Below are positions 4,715-27,600 of a stretch of DNA of 33,947 nucleotides, in pieces. The stretch comes from Candidatus Saccharimonadota bacterium (GTDB taxonomy: Bacteria > Patescibacteriota > Saccharimonadia > Saccharimonadales > Saccharimonadaceae). The number at the start of each line of letters is the position of its first letter. The stretch's first letter is position 1. Under the pieces are notes generated by a model, which saw nothing but the letters and a program-made list of their open reading frames with translations, did no database searches and was not told where the DNA came from. A program made the translations under genes and the position numbers. The stretch lies in contig JAFWDS010000034.1 of assembly GCA_017516075.1 (NCBI GenBank), forward strand, positions 1 to 33,947, written 5' to 3'.

Positions 4715-5146
4715 ATGGCAGAAGAAGTTAAAAACGAAGTTGTTTCGACTGAGCCTAAGGCTTCAAAGTCTAAACAAGCAAAAAAAGGTAAGAGAATTGT
4801 CAACGCAGGAGCGGTGCACATTCAAGCTACCTTTAACAATACAATTGTCAGCGTAACCGATAAAACTGGCGGGGTGCTTGCGGCATCTTCGGCTGGTGCG
4901 AATGGTTTTCGTGGTTCTAAGAAAGGTACAGCTTTTGCGGCTGGTGTTGCAGCCGAGAAGGCGCTCGAAACAGCCAAGAAAAATCATGCTCTAAATTCGG
5001 TTGATGTGTACGTATCGGGGATTGGTTTGGGACGCGATGCCGCGATTCGAGCGATTTCGACGGTAGGTATTAAAATTGACAGTATTACGGATGTAACCCC
5101 GACCCAGCACGGTGGTGTGCGGCCGAAGGGAGAAAGGAAACCATAA
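4715..5146 (+). CDS. rpsK: 30S ribosomal protein S11 (uS11)
   Basis: S11 sits on the 30S platform near the mRNA exit. The core is canonical: AHIQATFNNTIVSVTD-type text (here VHIQATFNNTIVSVTDKTG), GFRGSKKGTAFAAG, and the C-terminal DVTPTQHGGVRPKGERKP. It is 143 residues because of a Lys/Glu-rich N-terminal extension of about 25 residues. AAGGAG stands 5 nt before the ATG. The stop overlaps the rpsD start (TAATG), implying translational coupling. Confidence 0.97.
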   Translation: MAEEVKNEVVSTEPKASKSKQAKKGKRIVNAGAVHIQATFNNTIVSVTDKTGGVLAASSAGANGFRGSKKGTAFAAGVAAEKALETAKKNHALNSVDVYVSGIGLGRDAAIRAISTVGIKIDSITDVTPTQHGGVRPKGERKP

Positions 5147-7975: not shown

Positions 7976-7986
7976 TCGCAGTAGTA

Positions 7987-8142
7987 ACTTAAAACATTTT
8001 TTGCAACGTTGGTCTTACGCCATGGTAAGAATTACAACAGATTAGGCGGATTCGCCCTGATATTTCAGTATCAGATTCTCATCCGTAACTGTTGTAATTC
8101 TTACCTGGGTAATCCCAAATGTTGCAAAAAATTGTTTTAAGT
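7987..8142. repeat. Giant palindrome after rpsI (156 nt)
   Basis: The outer arms 7987-8007 and 8121-8142 pair with one extra base. The inner arms 8024-8040 and 8089-8105 pair perfectly over 17 bp. The apical loop holds two mini-hairpins (GGCG-GATT-CGCC and GATA-TTTCAG-TATC). Sequence-wise it differs from the palindromes near 12356, 13014 and 20231 but shares their architecture. It may act as operon terminator, a structured RNA, or a palindromic mobile unit. Confidence 0.75.
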
Positions 8143-8164
8143 CACCTTCTGGCTATTAGCGTGT

Positions 8165-8178: not shown

Positions 8179-8254
8179 GGGGCGTTAGCTCAGCTGATAG
8201 AGCGCAGCATTCGCATTGCTGAGGTCGCGGGTTTGATTCCCGCACGCTCCACCA
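8179..8254 (+). tRNA. tRNA-Ala (anticodon CGC)
   Basis: A complete cloverleaf of 76 nt with encoded CCA: acceptor GGGGCGT/ACGCTCC, D-arm GCTC/GAGC, anticodon stem CAGCA/TGCTG with loop TTCGCAT (anticodon CGC at 8212-8214), T-arm GCGGG/CCCGC, and ACCA at 8251-8254. It reads GCG. Its 3' end is copied 86 nt downstream. Confidence 0.95.
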
Positions 8255-8265
8255 GAAGTAAAAAG

Positions 8266-8289
8266 ATGAGAGCTTGCTCTCATATTTTT
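8266..8289 (+). terminator. Terminator of tRNA-Ala(CGC)
   Basis: ATGAGAGC, TT, GCTCTCAT followed by ATTTTTA: an 8-bp perfect stem with a T-rich tail, 12 nt after the tRNA. Confidence 0.7.
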
Positions 8290-8297
8290 ATTTCTTA

Positions 8298-8340
8298 GGA
8301 GCGGCCACGGGAATACTATGTATTCCCGCACGCTCCACCA
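8298..8340 (+). repeat. tRNA-Ala-derived minihelix ending in ACCA
   Basis: The last 19 nt of the tRNA-Ala gene (8236-8254) recur exactly at 8322-8340. The copy is not a bare fragment. A new 5' strand pairs with it: GGAGCG (8298-8303) with CGCTCC (8331-8336), and CGGGAATA (8308-8315) with TATTCCCG (8321-8328), loop CTATG. The product would be an acceptor-stem plus T-arm-like hairpin carrying the ACCA tail. No separate promoter is obvious; transcription would need read-through from the tRNA. Confidence 0.75.
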
Positions 8341-8348
8341 CATAAAAA

Positions 8349-8393
8349 GAAAGCCCCGGACTTACGCAATCCAGCGTTGCCTGACGGACTTTC
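8349..8393 (-). terminator. Possible terminator of the reverse-strand nuclease
   Basis: GAAAG and CTTTC close an imperfect stem with inner ACGC/GCGT; on the reverse strand it is followed by TTTTT. It stands just after the nuclease stop codon. Confidence 0.45.
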
Positions 8394-8414
8394 GATATTT
8401 TTATTATAACGTAT

Positions 8415-8804
8415 TTATTTAGAAAATTCAATGAGTTTCTTTTGTTTTGTTATCAGAAGTAACCGTTTGATATTTTTTGAGTGGTTAAACTGATACTTGA
8501 GTTCATTATTAATCCTACTAATATGAATTTTTGAAAATCTGGCGTCTATAATGATGTTTTCTGATTGTTTTGCTGCATTCCTTAGAGCGTGTTGTAAATT
8601 ATATTTTCCATTTCCTGTGGGTGTTTTTAGCTCCCAGTACAGTCCATTGATTTGAAAATCTGGAGTTTTATTATTGCCTCTTGTTATAAATTTTATATCC
8701 GATTTGAAGTATCCATTCAAGATATAAGCCGCTGTCATTTCTCGACTAGTTGGCTTTGGATATACTTCTCTAGGCACAATGACTGAATACTCTTTTTTTG
8801 GCAT
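8415..8804 (-). CDS. Orphan PD-(D/E)XK nuclease-like protein of the CdiA-CT tRNase type (copy 1)
   Basis: A 129-residue soluble protein. The centre reads TPDFQINGLYWELKTPTG, giving an Asp...Glu-x-Lys nuclease core, followed by AAKQSENIIIDARFSKI. This text resembles the C-terminal toxin domain of some CdiA proteins, whose studied members cut tRNA. Family assignment is from recalled motif similarity, not a search. The protein at 20832 is clearly homologous (TPDF, WE-x-K-x-P-x-G, AAKQS-x-NIIID, ITK). No signal peptide, delivery domain or immunity gene is nearby. TATAAT (8811-8816) lies 6 nt before the ATG, predicting a leaderless mRNA. Codons are more AT-rich than the ribosomal operon next door, suggesting transfer. 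A function as toxin, tRNA processing enzyme or mobile-element nuclease is undecided. Confidence 0.72.
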   Translation of the reverse strand: MPKKEYSVIVPREVYPKPTSREMTAAYILNGYFKSDIKFITRGNNKTPDFQINGLYWELKTPTGNGKYNLQHALRNAAKQSENIIIDARFSKIHISRINNELKYQFNHSKNIKRLLLITKQKKLIEFSK

Positions 8805-8890: not shown

Positions 8891-10747
8891 ATGAGAGGTA
8901 ATGTGCGACATCATCAAATATCTGGAATGATTGTAGCTAGTTTAGTTGTGGCTACATTTTGTTGTGGGTTTGTCTTGGCTAGTTCTTTGGTTTCTGCCGA
9001 TGATTCTTATAATGCCGACGTGACTCTTTCTGTTCCAGTCGCTTGTACCATGACCGGAACCATTAATACACCACATACAGCTAATGTAGAATCAGGAACT
9101 TATGTAGCTGATATTGGTACTACTACACTCAAAGCTGTATGTAATGATGCTAATGGCTTTTCTATCTATGCGATTGGTTATTCTAATCAAGAATATGGTA
9201 ATAATAAAATGCTAGCTACAGTAGGAGGAACACTAGCACCAACATATGATATAGCTACCGGAACAGCACAGAATGGAAACACATCAAACTGGGCAATGAA
9301 GCTAAATAGTGTAACTGGAACATATGCCCCTACCATACTATCAGACTTTGATTCTTATCATGCAGTTCCTGATACTTATACTAAAGTAGCTACTAGAACA
9401 GCTGGAACTGATGTTACAGTTGGAGCCAATCTACAATCTACTTATGCTGTATATGTCACTAGTACTCAACCAGCTGGAAGTTATAATGGTAAAGTTAAAT
9501 ACACTATGGTATACCCAAATGATGCAGATGCTCCACTATATCCTGAGACTACTCAAGCAGGGCAAATCTGCTATTATCCGAATGGAAGTAATGTAGAAGG
9601 TACGATGGGTTGCCAAACAATACCTGAGTCTGGAACTGTTGACGATGTTTCTCCTACATCTGCAGTTCTTCTTGCTTCCAACTTCTCGCGCGAAGGTTAT
9701 GGTTTTGCTGGTTGGAGTAAGACTTTTGATTATTCTGATGGTACCGGCTTTCTGGGCCCACAAGAATACATAGAATTCACTGAAGGTGCTTATTCTGGCA
9801 ATAATAATGGTTTATCGCTCTACGCTCGTTGGATTAAATCTACTGGTAGTCTCCAAGGATGGACTGGTTGTTCTAGTTTAGCTAGCGGTGCAGTGACAGC
9901 CCTTACTGACCAACGTGACAACGAAACCTACGCCATCGCCAAACTTGCTGATGGTAACTGTTGGATGATAGAAAACATGCGCCTAGAAAACACTAATAGT
10001 GACAACTCTACTGGTGCTCTAGCCCAAGGTTACGGCACTTCTGCCACCTACGGTAACTTCTCTGGTCTAGCTGATGCGGAAAATACAAATTTCTCAGACT
10101 CTACTACTGCTAATAGTCTATATAGTACAGATGGCAGTAATGATACTATAAATATCAGTACAAGTAATTACCCAGGTTACCGTATGCCACGCTATAATAA
10201 TACTAATACTTCTGCTCGTGCCAGTAGCCCAACAACCAATAGTAATTCTATGTATTCCTACGGCAACTACTACACCTGGCATGCTGCTATAGCAGACCTA
10301 ACTCATAGTAATACTAAAAATAGCTCAGTAACTAATACTTCATTATGCCCTAAAGGTTGGAGGTTACCAAAAGGTGGTGATAAAACAAGGATTACTTCCA
10401 ATAATGATAATGAATTCTGGAACTTAGTAGTAGTTGGTCTAAATGGTGGTATATCACCAGCTAACTTTGATAGCCAAACTGGACCATATTATACAGGCGC
10501 AGCAGAAGCTGGCCCTGTATCTAATTCACTAAGAGCTTACCCTAATAATTTCCTCTACTCCGGCCTTTTCAATACGTCATCGGCGAATGATAGGGGCGGC
10601 ATCGGCTACTATTGGTCGTCTACCACAAGCAGTAACATCAGTTCGTACAGGCTGTACCTGAATAGCACGTATGTCAGCCCGGGTGCCAATACCAACCGTA
10701 AGTACGAAGGCGTCAGCATTAGGTGTATAGTATCTTTGGGCGCTTAG
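8891..10747 (+). CDS. Secreted surface protein with InlB-type repeat and FISUMP domain
   Basis: A 618-residue exported protein. A signal peptide covers about residues 1-37 (hydrophobic core MIVASLVVATFCCGFVLASS, then SADD). Residues 40-215 form a Thr/Ser/Tyr-rich beta domain ending in AGSYNGKVKYTMVYPN. Residues about 225-315 resemble an InlB/Listeria-Bacteroides repeat (GYGFAGWS ... LSLYARW). Residues about 320-615 resemble the Fibrobacter paralogous (FISUMP) domain: ADGNCWMIENMRL, CPKGWRLPKGGD, GYYWSST and the closing GVSIRCIVS. There is no C-terminal TM or sorting signal, so attachment is unclear. The region 9044-9992 is nearly identical to 32993-33947. From about 10552 to the stop, base and codon use change sharply (more GGC, AGC, CTG, AGG). 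ATG 8891 was chosen because it follows the -10 box; GTG 8903 with GAGGT upstream is an alternative. Confidence 0.88.
   Translation: MRGNVRHHQISGMIVASLVVATFCCGFVLASSLVSADDSYNADVTLSVPVACTMTGTINTPHTANVESGTYVADIGTTTLKAVCNDANGFSIYAIGYSNQEYGNNKMLATVGGTLAPTYDIATGTAQNGNTSNWAMKLNSVTGTYAPTILSDFDSYHAVPDTYTKVATRTAGTDVTVGANLQSTYAVYVTSTQPAGSYNGKVKYTMVYPNDADAPLYPETTQAGQICYYPNGSNVEGTMGCQTIPESGTVDDVSPTSAVLLASNFSREGYGFAGWSKTFDYSDGTGFLGPQEYIEFTEGAYSGNNNGLSLYARWIKSTGSLQGWTGCSSLASGAVTALTDQRDNETYAIAKLADGNCWMIENMRLENTNSDNSTGALAQGYGTSATYGNFSGLADAENTNFSDSTTANSLYSTDGSNDTINISTSNYPGYRMPRYNNTNTSARASSPTTNSNSMYSYGNYYTWHAAIADLTHSNTKNSSVTNTSLCPKGWRLPKGGDKTRITSNNDNEFWNLVVVGLNGGISPANFDSQTGPYYTGAAEAGPVSNSLRAYPNNFLYSGLFNTSSANDRGGIGYYWSSTTSSNISSYRLYLNSTYVSPGANTNRKYEGVSIRCIVSLGA
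9044..9992 (+). repeat. Long direct repeat, copy 1 (partner 32993-33947)
   Basis: Aligned by eye, the two stretches are mostly identical, with scattered single-base, largely synonymous differences and one 6-nt length difference near 9537. The promoters, signal peptides and first mature residues on the left are unrelated at DNA level. The right limit is the window end, not a true boundary. Confidence 0.9.
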
Positions 10748-14141: not shown

Positions 14142-14993
14142 TTAGATATGGGGGATGTTTTTGTAATTTCTGTTGCGCCACTCGTACCATCTGCCATTGG
14201 CAATGAGCGTAGCCATGACGAGAACACCGGTGACAAAACCATAATCGTCGTATTTGGTAGTTTCTCGGATATTGAAATAACCAATGCTCCACATTTCGCT
14301 GGCTTTGCACATTCCGTCCTCTTGATTGTCGCAAAGCTTCATGGCGATGCGATCGATTTCGGATATGTCTTTGTCGTCGAAAGTCTTGACTGGCGGGTAG
14401 CCATCCAGATCATATCGCAAAGTCGCTATAATCGCTGAGGCTTTGTCTGCAACGTGAAGCAAACGACCGATAGTAGTGGCACGTTTGTTCATGAAGCTGA
14501 GAATCGAATTAACGTGCGTTTCGAATAGTAAATCGCGCGGTGGAGACATGAAGCTGTATTTGTACCAGTATTCTTGCTCATCTATAGCTTTGGCTGTATC
14601 ATCTCGACGACCATCGTCTGGGATGTCGCCGATTTCGTTTTCGGGTAGATCGTGGCGGCGTACTGCCTCCATGATTTCGCGATAACTAAAACTATAGTTT
14701 TCTTCGATAGGAATACAGTTGTCGCACTCGTAGCTAATGGCGTAGTCGACCAAAGCCGACATGAGATTAGTGTGCGCGGCAACTGATTCGTATGCGATAT
14801 TCGCGCTCGATAAGTGATAATTCTGGTTGAAGGAGCGGGAAAGCAGTGACAATTTGGCAATCTCTAAAAGTCTTGTAGCGGTATTGAAAATCTCATCTGC
14901 TTGATAGATAGGACGACACCAGATTGCTTGAACGGCCTTCTTTTCCTTCATCATGATAGACGTGTATAATGATTTGATTTCTTCTCGTTCCAA
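14142..14993 (-). CDS. HD-domain hydrolase (YfbR/HDDC2-like nucleotidase)
   Basis: A 283-residue cytosolic protein with HD-superfamily metal ligands: His74 in ESVAAHTNLM, His114-Asp115 in RRHDLPENEIGDIP, and a distal Asp184 in HVADKASAI. HDLPE-x-x-x-GDIP is characteristic of the HD_3 group that includes 5'-deoxynucleotidase YfbR. Being next to thyA-folA-glyA suggests a role in deoxynucleotide turnover; the substrate is inferred, not shown. The start is TTG 14993. Its leader (GGAGGTGAATTCT) is identical over 13 nt to that of the RelA-like gene at 17687, where an ATG occupies the matching place, and this supports the TTG choice. Confidence 0.75.
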   Translation of the reverse strand: MEREEIKSLYTSIMMKEKKAVQAIWCRPIYQADEIFNTATRLLEIAKLSLLSRSFNQNYHLSSANIAYESVAAHTNLMSALVDYAISYECDNCIPIEENYSFSYREIMEAVRRHDLPENEIGDIPDDGRRDDTAKAIDEQEYWYKYSFMSPPRDLLFETHVNSILSFMNKRATTIGRLLHVADKASAIIATLRYDLDGYPPVKTFDDKDISEIDRIAMKLCDNQEDGMCKASEMWSIGYFNIRETTKYDDYGFVTGVLVMATLIANGRWYEWRNRNYKNIPHI

Positions 14994-20146: not shown

Positions 20147-20231
20147 GCTGGAGTCGTCTAGTGGCAATGACAAGAGACTGTAAATCTCTCGCCTTCGGGC
20201 TTCGTAGGTTCGAGTCCTACCTCCAGCACCA
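20147..20231 (+). tRNA. tRNA-Tyr (anticodon GTA)
   Basis: A class II tRNA of 85 nt with encoded ACCA: acceptor GCTGGAG/CTCCAGC, anticodon stem AGAGA/TCTCT with loop CTGTAAA, long variable arm GCC-TTCG-GGC, T-arm GTAGG/CCTAC. A TATAAT at 20133-20138 lies 8 nt upstream. Confidence 0.95.
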
Positions 20232-20340
20232 AAATTCGAATTGAAAGGCGCCATCTCGGCGTTTTTTCGTGTTCGCTCGATCAATAATCGCGCTTCACAC
20301 GAAGAAAACACCAATCTGGCGCCTTTCAACTTCGAATTTT
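20231..20340. repeat. Giant palindrome directly after tRNA-Tyr (110 nt)
   Basis: The arm 20231-20253 pairs with 20317-20340 with one extra base. Inner pairs are GTTTTTTCGTGT with ACACGAAGAAAAC and CGAT with ATCG. The left arm starts in the tRNA's terminal A. The T-run after the right arm makes it a possible tRNA terminator, though far longer than needed. Confidence 0.8.
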
Positions 20341-20349
20341 TTTGGTTTT

Positions 20350-20486
20350 GGGGGTAGGGCGAGAACCGTAGGTTCGGACGCCGTAGGAGGCGAGTGAAAA
20401 TCTAAAATGTATTTTAGATTTTCCGAGACGACGCCCGGCGTATTGTTTTGCGCTTTAGCGCAAAACAAGTGTCCTACCTCCAGCAC
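20350..20486 (+). repeat. Hairpin-dense element closed by a copied tRNA-Tyr 3' end
   Basis: The tRNA-Tyr segment 20214-20229 recurs exactly at 20471-20486. Its CCTACCTCC pairs with a new 5' strand GGGGGTAGG (20350-20358), so the copied 3' end again closes a stem, as in the tRNA-Ala minihelix. Inside are three further hairpins: GAACC-GTA-GGTTC (20363-20375), a 12-13-bp palindrome at 20396-20423, and an 11-bp perfect stem 20443-20453 with 20458-20468 (GCGC-TTTA-GCGC at its top). Confidence 0.65.
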
Positions 20487-20520
20487 TATAAAAAATAGGC
20501 CCTCAAGCCCATTTTTTATA
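20487..20520. terminator. Bidirectional terminator-like hairpin
   Basis: TATAAAAAAT with ATTTTTTATA (10 bp perfect) around a GGCC/GCCC apex. It ends the tRNA-Tyr-derived element. Confidence 0.6.
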
Positions 20521-20831: not shown

Positions 20832-21212
20832 ATGAAAATTGGGAAAATTATTCCGAATGGCGTTAGTCTAGAAAAACACGAAAATGATACAATTGTATTT
20901 TTTACTAATCTTGGTTTTAATGTTGAGTTAATTCCACCATCAAATACGCCAAAAGCCAAAACTCCAGATTTTATGATGGACGGAAAAGCCTGGGAGATGA
21001 AAAGTCCGCAAGGTAAAAGTCGCGTTACCGTAGAGCATGCTTTTAAACGCGCAGCTAAACAATCAGATAATATCATCATAGACTTAAGACGCACTAAAAT
21101 TCCTACTAATGAGTCAAAAGCATCTTTAGAAAAATTATTCAAAACCTCACGCAGGGTTAAAAGTCTTAAAATTATCACTAAAGAACAAGAGCTACTTGAT
21201 TTTAATAAGTAA
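20832..21212 (+). CDS. Orphan PD-(D/E)XK nuclease-like protein of the CdiA-CT tRNase type (copy 2)
   Basis: A 126-residue homologue of the protein at 8415-8804. KTPDFMMDGKAWEMKSPQGKS gives the Asp...Glu-x-Lys core, and AAKQSDNIIIDLRRTKI follows. The two share the central and C-terminal halves and differ at the N-terminus (here ENDTIVFFTNLGFNVELIPPS before the core). It has no signal peptide, no long carrier and no adjacent immunity gene. It stands between tRNA-Tyr (with copied 3' end) on the left and tRNA-Thr (with remodelled copy) on the right. The homologue likewise stands next to tRNA-Ala and its 3' copy. The assignment to the CdiA C-terminal tRNase group rests on motif memory; other PD-(D/E)XK functions remain possible. 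Confidence 0.72.
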   Translation: MKIGKIIPNGVSLEKHENDTIVFFTNLGFNVELIPPSNTPKAKTPDFMMDGKAWEMKSPQGKSRVTVEHAFKRAAKQSDNIIIDLRRTKIPTNESKASLEKLFKTSRRVKSLKIITKEQELLDFNK

Positions 21213-21289: not shown

Positions 21290-21444
21290 AGTATATCTGT
21301 TATAAACGAACCAGACCTTTTCACCAGAGGTCAAATCCTTTTCTATCAAGGTTCTAACTTCGTTTACAATTCTGCACCAAGTCCTTCGGACTTGCATTAA
21401 AAAGCAGGACTCGGTTCTCGCTTCGCTCGAAGCGAGTCCTACCA
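21290..21444. repeat. Hairpin chain upstream of tRNA-Thr, ending in an ACCA-tailed stem
   Basis: Successive hairpins occupy the 21213-21488 spacer: GACCT/AGGTC near 21306-21325, CAAGTCC-TTC-GGACTTG (21378-21394), and AGGACTCG (21406-21413) with CGAGTCCT (21433-21440) followed directly by ACCA (21441-21444). The last has the look of a tRNA acceptor-type stem with CCA, but its parent tRNA is not in the window. An alternative fold of the same bases pairs CTCGCTTC with GAAGCGAG. Confidence 0.5.
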
Positions 21445-21573: not shown

Positions 21574-21686
21574 GCCGCGATAGCTCAGTTGCTTGTACGA
21601 GCGCGTAAGCGCAAGTAAAGTTTTAGTCAGCGCATCCATGCGCGTAGCGCATGAGGTCACCGGTTCAAACCCGGTTCGCGGCTCCA
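21574..21686 (+). pseudogene. Remodelled tRNA-Thr copy (tRNA-like, no usable anticodon arm)
   Basis: A 113-nt tandem copy of the preceding tRNA-Thr. The 5' 18 nt and the 3' 36 nt are identical, so the acceptor stem, T-arm and TCCA are intact; the D-stem GCTC/GAGC is kept. The D-loop is changed and about 35 nt are inserted after the D-arm, including GCGC-GTAA-GCGC. The anticodon arm is replaced by a perfect hairpin CATGCGC-GTA-GCGCATG (21637-21653). It cannot decode but could still fold the acceptor/T-arm half. It may be a decaying pseudogene or a maintained tRNA mimic. Confidence 0.75.
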
Positions 21687-24638: not shown

Positions 24639-27600
24639 ATGCGAGAGAATAGGAGATTTCGTTCTACTATTTGCTTGTTTTGTTTGAGCATTCTTTGTGC
24701 TTTAGGTTTTTGCTCCAATTCCGTGTTTGCAACTGCAACAGAGAGCACTATTTCCTTAAGCATTTCTTCTGGAAGTCTGTCCGTTTCGTTGCTTGGTGCG
24801 CCTGGTGGAACTTTTGCAAATTCTGGAAATGCTGTTGTTTCAGTTACGACGGATAATTTTACTGGGTATGTTTTGTCAGTAAATACCGGTAGTGGTACTA
24901 GCTTAGTTAGTGAAAACGATGATGAAATCGAATCTATTTCTTCTGCTATTTCCGGTCAAACTTTTTCAACAAATTCTGCCTACACAAATAAATGGGGGTT
25001 TAAGCCTTCTCAATACATTTCGAGCAGCGGAGGTGTAGATACCTTAGTAAGCAATACAGATTATTTACCTGCGCCTTCCGGACAGGGCTTAATTCTCGAT
25101 AAGACTTCTGCCGCAAATAGCGTAGCTAATACTTACACGCTTTCTTTTGGTGTAAAAGTTGATGATACCATGCCAGCTGGCACTTATCAGGGGACATATG
25201 TTTTGACGGCGATAGCTAACTCGATTGTTTATAATATTACTTACGACGACAATGCTTCAAATACGGCAGGCAGTATGCCTTCGCCTAACCCCCAGGCATT
25301 AGAAATTGATGGTGGCACACCAGTAGCGGACAGCTATGGTACGCTTAGTAGTGCTATTCCGACTCTAGCCGATAAGACTTTTGGCGGATGGTGTGATGTG
25401 AGGCCGACCCGTGATCAAACAACTCAAAATGATGAATGTACGGGTACAACTTATGCTGCAGGGGCCGATTATCCAATTGACCAGACGGCTGATGGTGCCA
25501 ATATTACACTTTATGCTATCTGGATTACTGATCCATTTCCGACCGTCTGGAGCCAGATGGGGAAATGTGTATTTACTTCGACTCAAACTGGTTCGAATCC
25601 GGCCACATACGATGGTGATGTTTCGGGCTCCGAGTGTACTGAATATGCTGGTGATGATTATATAGATACGGGTATAGCGCTTTATAGTAATGATAATTAT
25701 CAAAAAGATTATGAGGTGCATTTTACACTTGATTCTTTTAACCCTGGTGGTCAACTAGAGTCTCAGGCGACTATATTTAATGATAAATTATCATCAGCTG
25801 TGACTGCTAGCCCTTATGGTGGGAAGTCTCCTGGTCTGGTTGTGCGTATCACTACTAGTAAAACTTTTGAAATAAAGTCAACTTATGGTGCACCGACTGA
25901 TCACGCAGAAGATAAGATTGTCACCAAAACTCCATATGCTACCGCTTACAATGGTACGGATGTGCGGATTTTTAGAATTGATGGCATTATTTACACTAGT
26001 ATTGATAATGGGCCATTGGTTCAGCTTCAGGATTACACTCCCTTTAATCAGCAGTTTGGTCTTACGGCTTGGTTTGGGGCTTATCCAGATAACGTGAACT
26101 GCACTGAGAACTGTACAGCTGCAAAGCGTTTCATTACGGGTGAACTTAGCAATATGTATATTAAGCTAGGAGATATACCGACTAATAGGCTTCATACGAT
26201 TACATTTGATGGAAATGGCGGAACCCCGGCTACTACTACTCATTTGATTTTGGATGGCGATGCATTGGGTGAGTTGCCCGAGGTAACCAATAGCGGGTGG
26301 TTCTTTGATGGTTGGTGGACTGCGTCGAGCGGTGGACAACAAGTTTCGGCGTCTACTGTGCCAGATGCGACTACGGCCTACTATGCGCATTGGTATAAGT
26401 CAGTGGCTGATGCTCAAATTACTAATACTAGTGTGGGTTTGGCTATAAATGGGACTGAGACTATTACGATTACCAATGCTTCCGATATTGAGCCTTATAC
26501 TTTGTCGTCGAGTGATTCGAATGTGGCTACTGTGAGCCCTGCTGGTGTGATTACGGGTGTAACTAATGGTACGGCTACTATTACGATGACTGGTACGAAG
26601 ACTGGTGATACGCGTACGATAAATGTGACTGTAGGAAGTGTTATTGCGGTTGACTTCGATTCGGACGGTGGTTTGCCAGCGACTTTTCAAGAAAATGTAG
26701 CCGATGGCGGATCGTTTAGCTCTTTGCCGGAGCCAACGAAATCAGGCTATACACTTGAGGGGTGGTATACTGGTACGAATGGTACTGGTACACAGCTAAC
26801 TACTTCTACGGTGTTTACTTCCTCAACTCCTACTCAATACTATGCTTATTGGACGCAGACCGTCTATGTATGTAAGATTGCTACTTCACGTCATAGCGAG
26901 CAGTGCGCACAATCTGGTTCAAATGGTTGTAAGGGTGCCAGCTGGGGGACGAGCACGATTGAATATGGTTATTTAATAAGTGATTCTTCGCCTGTGTCTG
27001 CTGGTGCCGCATATGATTGCGACGTAGACTTTGATGGTACATATGATCCTGATACGGAAAGATTCTACTATTTCGGTTCCGAAAATGGCAACGCTAAGCT
27101 TATCTACTACAAGAATATGGCAAATAACGCAAGTGTTGGTTATAACGATGCTATAGCATTGCTTCCGAATTATGAATTGGATGCTAATAATCCTACTGTT
27201 CCAGTATGGGATAACCCGAATTTGGTAACTTATACTTCTGGTGATTATGCTGGCAAAGCCGCTCGATTCATGACTTATCCTGAAATTTCGAATGGTCTTT
27301 ATACCGGTGGCAATAATCATATAACTCCTTCTGATAGTGAGAGCACGTATTTGTTTGAACAATCGAATTTTGCGACTGCTAATGCGACGGATGGGATTTG
27401 GCTTGAAAAACAACCTAACTTTAATAACAGGATTCAAACTAGATCTCGTCAGCTAACCCATGGTTCAACTTCTGCAAATGCGGCGCGTCCAACCATCGAT
27501 GTGCCGACTCAGTATATAGAGCCATACACTCCTTCGGCTTATAACATTACCTTTAATCCACATAATGAAACTGCTTCTTCGACTGGGACGATTGACGTCG

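Follow-up and report, generated by a model that had tools for sequence, protein, structure and literature searches.

What kind of structure arises where a tRNA gene is followed by a hairpin containing a copy of the gene's own 3' end and, further downstream, by a gene for a small nuclease? The question is raised by a stretch of 33,947 nt (the window) that forms contig C31 in a Candidatus Saccharimonadota genome of 0.92 Mb in 37 contigs and in which ARAGORN detects five tRNA genes. In a preliminary description, based on the sequence of the window alone, the trio found at tRNA-Ala(CGC) (locus 1) and at tRNA-Tyr (locus 2) was regarded as a recurring module. The analysis presented here points to a different organization: the tRNA gene and its hairpin probably constitute a tRNA-linked repeat (TLR) that is renewed at the DNA level, the nuclease being a separate enzyme of the CdiA-CT type. 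The features of both loci are collected in Table 1.

Table 1. Positions of the tRNA genes, tRNA-end copies, hairpins and nuclease genes at the two loci of the window
Feature	Position	Strand	Basis
Locus 1			
tRNA-Ala(CGC) with encoded CCA, source of the copy	8179..8254	+	ARAGORN; Rfam tRNA 64.6 bits
T1, terminator-like palindrome separating tRNA-Ala from the copy	8255..8297	+	fold; hairpin + T-run
Mini tRNA-linked hairpin, acceptor/T-stem-like minihelix with 3' end ACCA	8298..8340	+	fold z -6.3
19-nt exact copy of the tRNA-Ala 3' end (8236-8254)	8322..8340	+	repeat comparison
Standalone CdiA_C (PF18451) nuclease, 129 aa; neighbour judged outside the repeat	8415..8804	-	Pfam, predicted fold
Locus 2			
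tRNA-Tyr(GTA)	20147..20231	+	ARAGORN
Module A, long imperfect palindrome directly 3' of tRNA-Tyr	20228..20345	+	fold z -9.8
Module B, tRNA-linked repeat	20344..20488	+	covariance models R1/R2, 139 bits; fold z -7.4
16-nt duplicate of 20214-20229 in the tRNA-Tyr 3' end, serving as 3' arm of the B outer stem	20471..20486	+	
T2, terminator-like palindrome 3' of the Tyr copy	20487..20520	+	fold; hairpin + T-run
Standalone CdiA_C (PF18451) nuclease, 126 aa; neighbour judged outside the repeat	20832..21212	+	Pfam
Remnant of another Tyr-linked unit (C type), ending CGAGTCCTACC at 21433-21443	21374..21443	+	11-nt match
Second tRNA-Thr(GGT) copy, near-complete, D and anticodon arms enlarged by extra sequence	21574..21683	+	Rfam tRNA 36 bits

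The copied tRNA ends noticed in the preliminary description are real. At locus 1 the direct repeat is identical over 19/19 nt, and the copy closes a 43-nt hairpin (-24.6 kcal/mol, z -6.3 with respect to shuffled sequences). This minihelix carries an A3-U70 pair, whereas the sequence of tRNA-Ala itself has G3-U70. The same arrangement is present behind tRNA-Ala(CGC) in three other species among the 30 compared. The covariance models of the B type do not recognize this mini type, whose tie to B is one of architecture alone. There is also an imperfect palindrome of about 150 nt (7984-8145) upstream of tRNA-Ala, between the tRNA gene and an rpsI-like ORF; the stretch 7976-8125 folds with a z of -8.0 and is one more of the long palindromes of the genus.

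At locus 2 the identity covers 16/16 nt (19/21 including the flank). The copy stops two bases short of the last base of tRNA-Tyr and closes a branched structure of 148 nt (20343-20490; -70.5 kcal/mol, z -7.4 with respect to shuffles). Relatives of module A are located behind the Val-CAC, Leu-GAG and Asn tRNAs of the same genome. Two further tRNA-copy features near this locus had been missed. One is the remnant of the C-type Tyr unit, intact equivalents of which lie directly between tRNA-Tyr and tRNA-Thr in three relatives, and the other is the second tRNA-Thr copy, directly 3' of the intact gene, which shares identities of 18 nt and 36 nt with tRNA-Thr. The nuclease gene of locus 2 is flanked by two copies of the Tyr end. 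Concerning orientation, the nuclease gene is convergent with the tRNA at locus 1, as had been described for both loci, but co-directional with tRNA-Tyr at locus 2.

The combination of a tRNA gene and a hairpin carrying its 3' end recurs, as had been proposed, and it does so far beyond these two loci. Exact copies of the gene's own 3' end (at least 13 nt, at most 400 nt downstream) accompany 12 of the 46 tRNA genes of the genome, while shuffled flanks yield 0.005 per genome; among the matches, the single upstream one and two downstream ones are merely neighbouring tRNAs. No reverse-complement copies of tRNA 3' ends were found in the flanks of the 46 tRNA genes. The copies start in the T-loop or in the T-stem and nearly always reach the CCA. 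The hairpins fall into four recurrent types: mini, found at Ala; A, a palindrome of 105 nt; B, of about 140 nt; and C, which is in tandem in Ser-GCT and Tyr. The B covariance model recognizes 16 places in the genome of the window and has matches in 45 of 60 congeners. B lies behind a tRNA gene of the same strand in 94 of the 114 matches checked (55 of the 60 best), and 33 different anticodons are represented. The distance from tRNA to B is mostly fixed, either 36-47 nt, with one terminator-like hairpin in between, or 101-123 nt, with module A in between. A terminator usually separates the tRNA from B, and terminator-like palindromes flank several copies.

Each B copy corresponds to the end of its own adjacent tRNA. 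For instance, a 2-nt difference between two species in the acceptor stem of tRNA-Val(TAC) is mirrored in the copy, while outside the copy the element is nearly identical in both. The 5' arm of B is the reverse complement of the T-stem part of the copy and of adjoining bases beyond the T-stem, and not the tRNA's own T-stem 5' strand. The CCA end is decayed in many B copies, the presence or absence of hairpins at a given tRNA differs between species, and tandem copies occur. As many as 13 B-type copies occur in one genome, each fitting its own tRNA, and this natural variation is enough to test the nature of TLRs. Beyond the genus the distribution is patchy: of 284 further genomes from the phylum, 10 have a match to B, and the strongest set of matches comes from another genus in the same family.

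B cores that are not linked to tRNA genes lie inside other inverted repeats, such as CIRCE arms, a 23S leader, longer palindromes and the T-loop of an extra tRNA-Gln. At three loci, a B-type hairpin separates the two arms of a CIRCE-like TTAGCACTC/GAGTGCTAA repeat, with TTGAC on either side; an effect on a heat-shock-type promoter is possible. In three species, a B-type hairpin is directly upstream of the 5' end of the 23S rRNA. At two loci, an extra copy of tRNA-Gln is split by B in the T-loop and followed by the intact tRNA-Gln. Contig C14 of genome G000 harbours B cores nested in long palindromes away from tRNAs (4880-5017, 14444-14572, 27307-27423, and 50412-50563), and some nested cores of this sort apparently fall within coding sequence. 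No long direct repeats surround the non-tRNA B copies apart from tRNA ends, and target-site duplication was discarded on this basis.

The participation of the nuclease in a three-part module, as originally proposed, does not withstand comparison. At the tRNA-Ala(CGC) site the hairpin is present in 4/30 species and the nuclease only in that of the window; at the tRNA-Tyr site the 3'-end copy is present in 13/30 species and the nuclease in 3/30. In the genome of the window, too, most copy-bearing tRNA genes lack a neighbouring nuclease. The preliminary description had suggested locating nuclease homologues of related genomes with respect to tRNA genes, and the outcome goes against its own proposal. 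Elsewhere, 4 of 29 nuclease loci have a tRNA within 1.5 kb (3.6 expected), and in a second collection of Saccharibacteria loci 4 of 42 have one within 1 kb (3.8 expected), both expectations being derived from the tRNA map of the window's genome. Since proximity between nuclease and tRNA is at the level of chance and the hairpins are mostly devoid of a nuclease, the trio is not one system; the nuclease mostly lives elsewhere, scattered, and sometimes at hairpin sites. What remains is a slight excess of nucleases in the vicinity of B. Of 101 nucleases, 4 are at most 500 nt away from a B hairpin, 0.5 being expected (P ~0.002) by a calculation that ignores a shared preference for intergenic sites. 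In the second collection, 3 of 42 loci are within 250 nt of B. The nearby partner is absent for 97/101 nucleases (96%) and for 111/115 B hairpins (97%). Across species, the presence or absence of nuclease and B is unassociated (Fisher P 0.31), and their numbers are weakly correlated (rho 0.27, P 0.036).

The identification of the two ORFs as homologous standalone nucleases of the CdiA-CT/PD-(D/E)XK type was correct. Both match the Pfam family CdiA_C (PF18451), with E-values of 4e-18 at locus 1 and 3e-16 at locus 2 and scores of 65.7 and 60 bits (curated cut-off 26.6). An alignment of 27 sequences shows invariant E22, D49, E58, and Q80 and near-invariant K60. The AlphaFold2 model of the locus-1 protein (pLDDT 91) adopts the fold of a CdiA-CT PD-(D/E)XK nuclease, the best structural match being 4G6V, the CdiA-CT of B. 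pseudomallei 1026b (Foldseek 1.4e-5, Z 12.9), followed by 5J4A, the CdiA-CT of E479 (Z 8.4). The former is reported to cleave the acceptor stem of tRNA-Ala and the latter the T-loop of tRNA-Arg (PMC9086364). The conserved residues and the fold match to CdiA-CT tRNases therefore uphold the family assignment: as judged from sequence and model, both proteins are true relatives of these tRNA-cutting toxins, likely with an intact active site. They share with 4G6V and 5J4A the Pfam match, the fold, and the conserved E, D, E-x-K, and Q, but they belong to a multicopy family of standalone ORFs of 126-150 aa that lack the CdiA N-terminus and a nearby immunity gene. The absence of a protein immunity gene had been noted, and no recurrent neighbour resembling one was found beside the nuclease in 37 + 80 loci. 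On these grounds a protein immunity partner was rejected. A CDI system, made up of the CdiA N-terminal secretion part, CdiB and an adjacent CdiI, is not indicated as far as the first and the last of these components are concerned, the window ORFs consisting only of a domain of 126-129 aa with no recurrent neighbour.

The nuclease family is present in 44 of 60 congeners, with about 100 matches. Among named carriers, the closest are MAGs of Candidatus Saccharibacteria recovered from the guts of ruminants, and close relatives are also found in MAGs labelled Lachnospiraceae, Elusimicrobia, and other gut bacteria. Genes may have moved between the parasites and their hosts, or contigs may have been binned wrongly. 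In the window (8891-10747) and at five other loci, the nuclease has as its neighbour a member of a family of long secreted proteins. Such members adjoin 7 of the 37 nuclease loci, those of a similar family 6 of 80 others, and the proteins may merely be abundant; one of them shows a weak match to Fib_succ_major.

The exceptions to Watson-Crick pairing in B bear on whether its helices are constrained as RNA or as DNA. Helices that are kept for their RNA fold should contain far more G-U than A-C pairs. The stems of 154 distinct tRNAs of the same genomes contain 120 G-U and 5 A-C, whereas B contains 71 G-U and 57 A-C, a ratio that is indistinguishable from 1:1 (P 0.25) and differs from that of the tRNAs (Fisher 4e-15); the alignment of B being based on a covariance model, bias, if any, would be toward G-U. 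Folding is slightly more stable for the sense than for the antisense strand of B (70/93), which could be explained by the recruitment of the matches with a sense-strand model. Pairing in B thus ignores the RNA wobble rule and is not filtered at the RNA level, and we conclude that it is presumably created and renewed in DNA, by palindrome turnover or insertion, rather than selected as RNA.

The TLR is a non-coding palindromic repeat just 3' of a tRNA gene, and its last 16-20 bases duplicate the 3' end of that tRNA. The duplicated part comprises the 3' strand of the T-stem, the 3' strand of the acceptor stem and the CCA, and the first bases of the repeat are the reverse complement of part of the copy. 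Palindromic DNA may insert itself, or be extended, at the tip of an inverted repeat that is already present, for example the T-arm of a tRNA gene, and the survivors would be those events leaving a complete tRNA 3' end. Behind a tRNA gene such hairpins would be tolerated, as the 3' end of the gene itself stays intact. The search for Y1 transposases and tyrosine recombinases revealed no enzyme dedicated to mobilising the repeats, which speaks against this view. Read-through past the first terminator could produce a transcript with a tRNA-like 3' end, and the tRNA 3'-processing enzymes could trim it to a small RNA, by analogy with the E. coli rrn TLRs. The nuclease is a separate, scattered and probably intact enzyme of the CdiA-CT type that is sometimes present at TLR sites.

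The hairpin could instead be a structured regulatory sRNA selected for its fold, in the manner of E. coli rrB, with the tRNA copy acting as a 3'-processing signal. Three E. coli rrn TLRs are read through T1, processed, and bound by Hfq and CsrA, and an E. coli repeat has been proposed as an RNase E signal (PMC8144298); the terminator-like palindromes around several of our copies would fit such a role. However, the ratio of G-U to A-C gives no purifying selection at the RNA level on B helices, the CCA end has been lost by decay in many copies, and B cores occur in promoters and leaders too, so this explanation appears unlikely.

Footprints of an element whose nuclease targets tRNA genes had also been considered in the preliminary description. 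In a related form of this idea, the hairpins would be attR-like ends of integrative elements that use tRNA 3' ends as attachment sites and carry the nuclease as cargo. A copy running from the T-loop to the CCA resembles a classic att duplication, and the position of the locus-2 nuclease between two Tyr-end copies is what such elements would leave. However, the units measure 66-260 bp, too short for an integrase, and possess a conserved inner structure, their arms fit 33 tRNAs, a range beyond any single site-specific element, and a terminator usually intervenes between the tRNA and B. The only tyrosine recombinase of the genome is Xer-like and encoded on contig C26, and an integron or integrase origin was likewise rejected. 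We regard this footprint explanation as very improbable.

It is tempting to regard the hairpins as decoys or antitoxins made of RNA that act in cis or in trans by mimicking the acceptor/T-arm cut by CdiA-CT tRNases. The closest structural relative of the nuclease is reported to cut the acceptor stem of tRNA-Ala, the Ala hairpin forms an acceptor/T-stem minihelix with ACCA at its end, no immunity gene recurs, and adjacency to B and copy numbers show the weak trends described above. The main argument against it is the lack of an RNA-type constraint on B pairing. Furthermore, most nucleases and most B hairpins lack a nearby partner, species distributions are unassociated, proximity of the nuclease to tRNA genes is that of chance, and the Ala minihelix has A3-U70 in place of G3-U70. 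An RNA antitoxin in cis, in particular, is contradicted by co-occurrence, the nuclease being near B in 4/101 cases and at Ala-CGC hairpin loci in 1/4. The pairing of B corrects the toxin-decoy story, which is hardly credible. A combined scenario, in which a DNA process writes the complement of any neighbouring tRNA 3' end, the resulting sites preferentially capture the orphan tRNase gene and the minihelices serve as substrates or decoys in trans, seems extremely unlikely.

The interpretation of these units as TLRs is favoured by their likeness to repeats of E. coli, and the layout is not a novel one, as had been believed. In E. coli, 22 TLRs are known at ten loci; they are located in tRNA or rRNA operons, their 3' 18-19 bp repeat exactly the 3' terminus of the gene that precedes them, and since they were first noticed in 1978 no accepted function has emerged (PMC8144298). 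The repeats of the window are also immediately downstream of the tRNA gene, at the Ala and Tyr loci as well as in the 94 B matches mentioned above, and they end in its copy, of 19 nt at Ala and 16-22 nt elsewhere. Placement, copied end, possible tandems and nearby terminators are common to the window type and to the E. coli TLRs, including rrA, rrB, rrF, and the tyrT repeats (RtT RNA, RF00391); the E. coli tyrT locus contains five copies of the tRNA-Tyr end, that of the gene itself included. RtT and B resemble each other in the outer stem, which contains the tRNA end, and share a GAGAACC...GGUUCG hairpin. The Rfam model of RtT covers B in full length at its exact coordinates at two loci (24.4 and 21 bits), below the gathering score of 45, and the B model R1 finds the repeat of the E. 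coli tyrT-tyrV spacer (19.1 bits, E 2e-4 in a small search). RtT is the only known Rfam RNA approached, below threshold, the matches to microRNA families being generic hairpins. Since the RtT scores are under 45 bits, a shared ancestry of B and the repeats of E. coli is not established, and the similarity could be due either to convergence or to a distant relationship. Unlike the E. coli TLRs, the repeats described here belong to another phylum, span 33 anticodons across a genus, and comprise a conserved inner palindrome (B) together with the A, C and mini types.

REP/BIME and the Rickettsia palindromic elements are likewise short, dispersed, gene-free palindromes of intergenic or structured sites. 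In contrast to REP/BIME, the window repeats are tied to tRNA 3' ends and contain copies of them, and no Y1 transposase (RAYT, PF01797) was found in 22 genomes of the genus, which led us to reject RAYT mobilisation. A literature search on Saccharibacteria with tRNA and palindromes retrieved nothing relevant. To the extent that sequence and position define the class, the tRNA and hairpin units are a large, genus-wide and previously unreported set of TLRs in Saccharibacteria, a phylum other than that of E. coli. Although the TLR layout was already known, its presence in another phylum and the evidence that B pairing behaves as that of a DNA palindrome are new.
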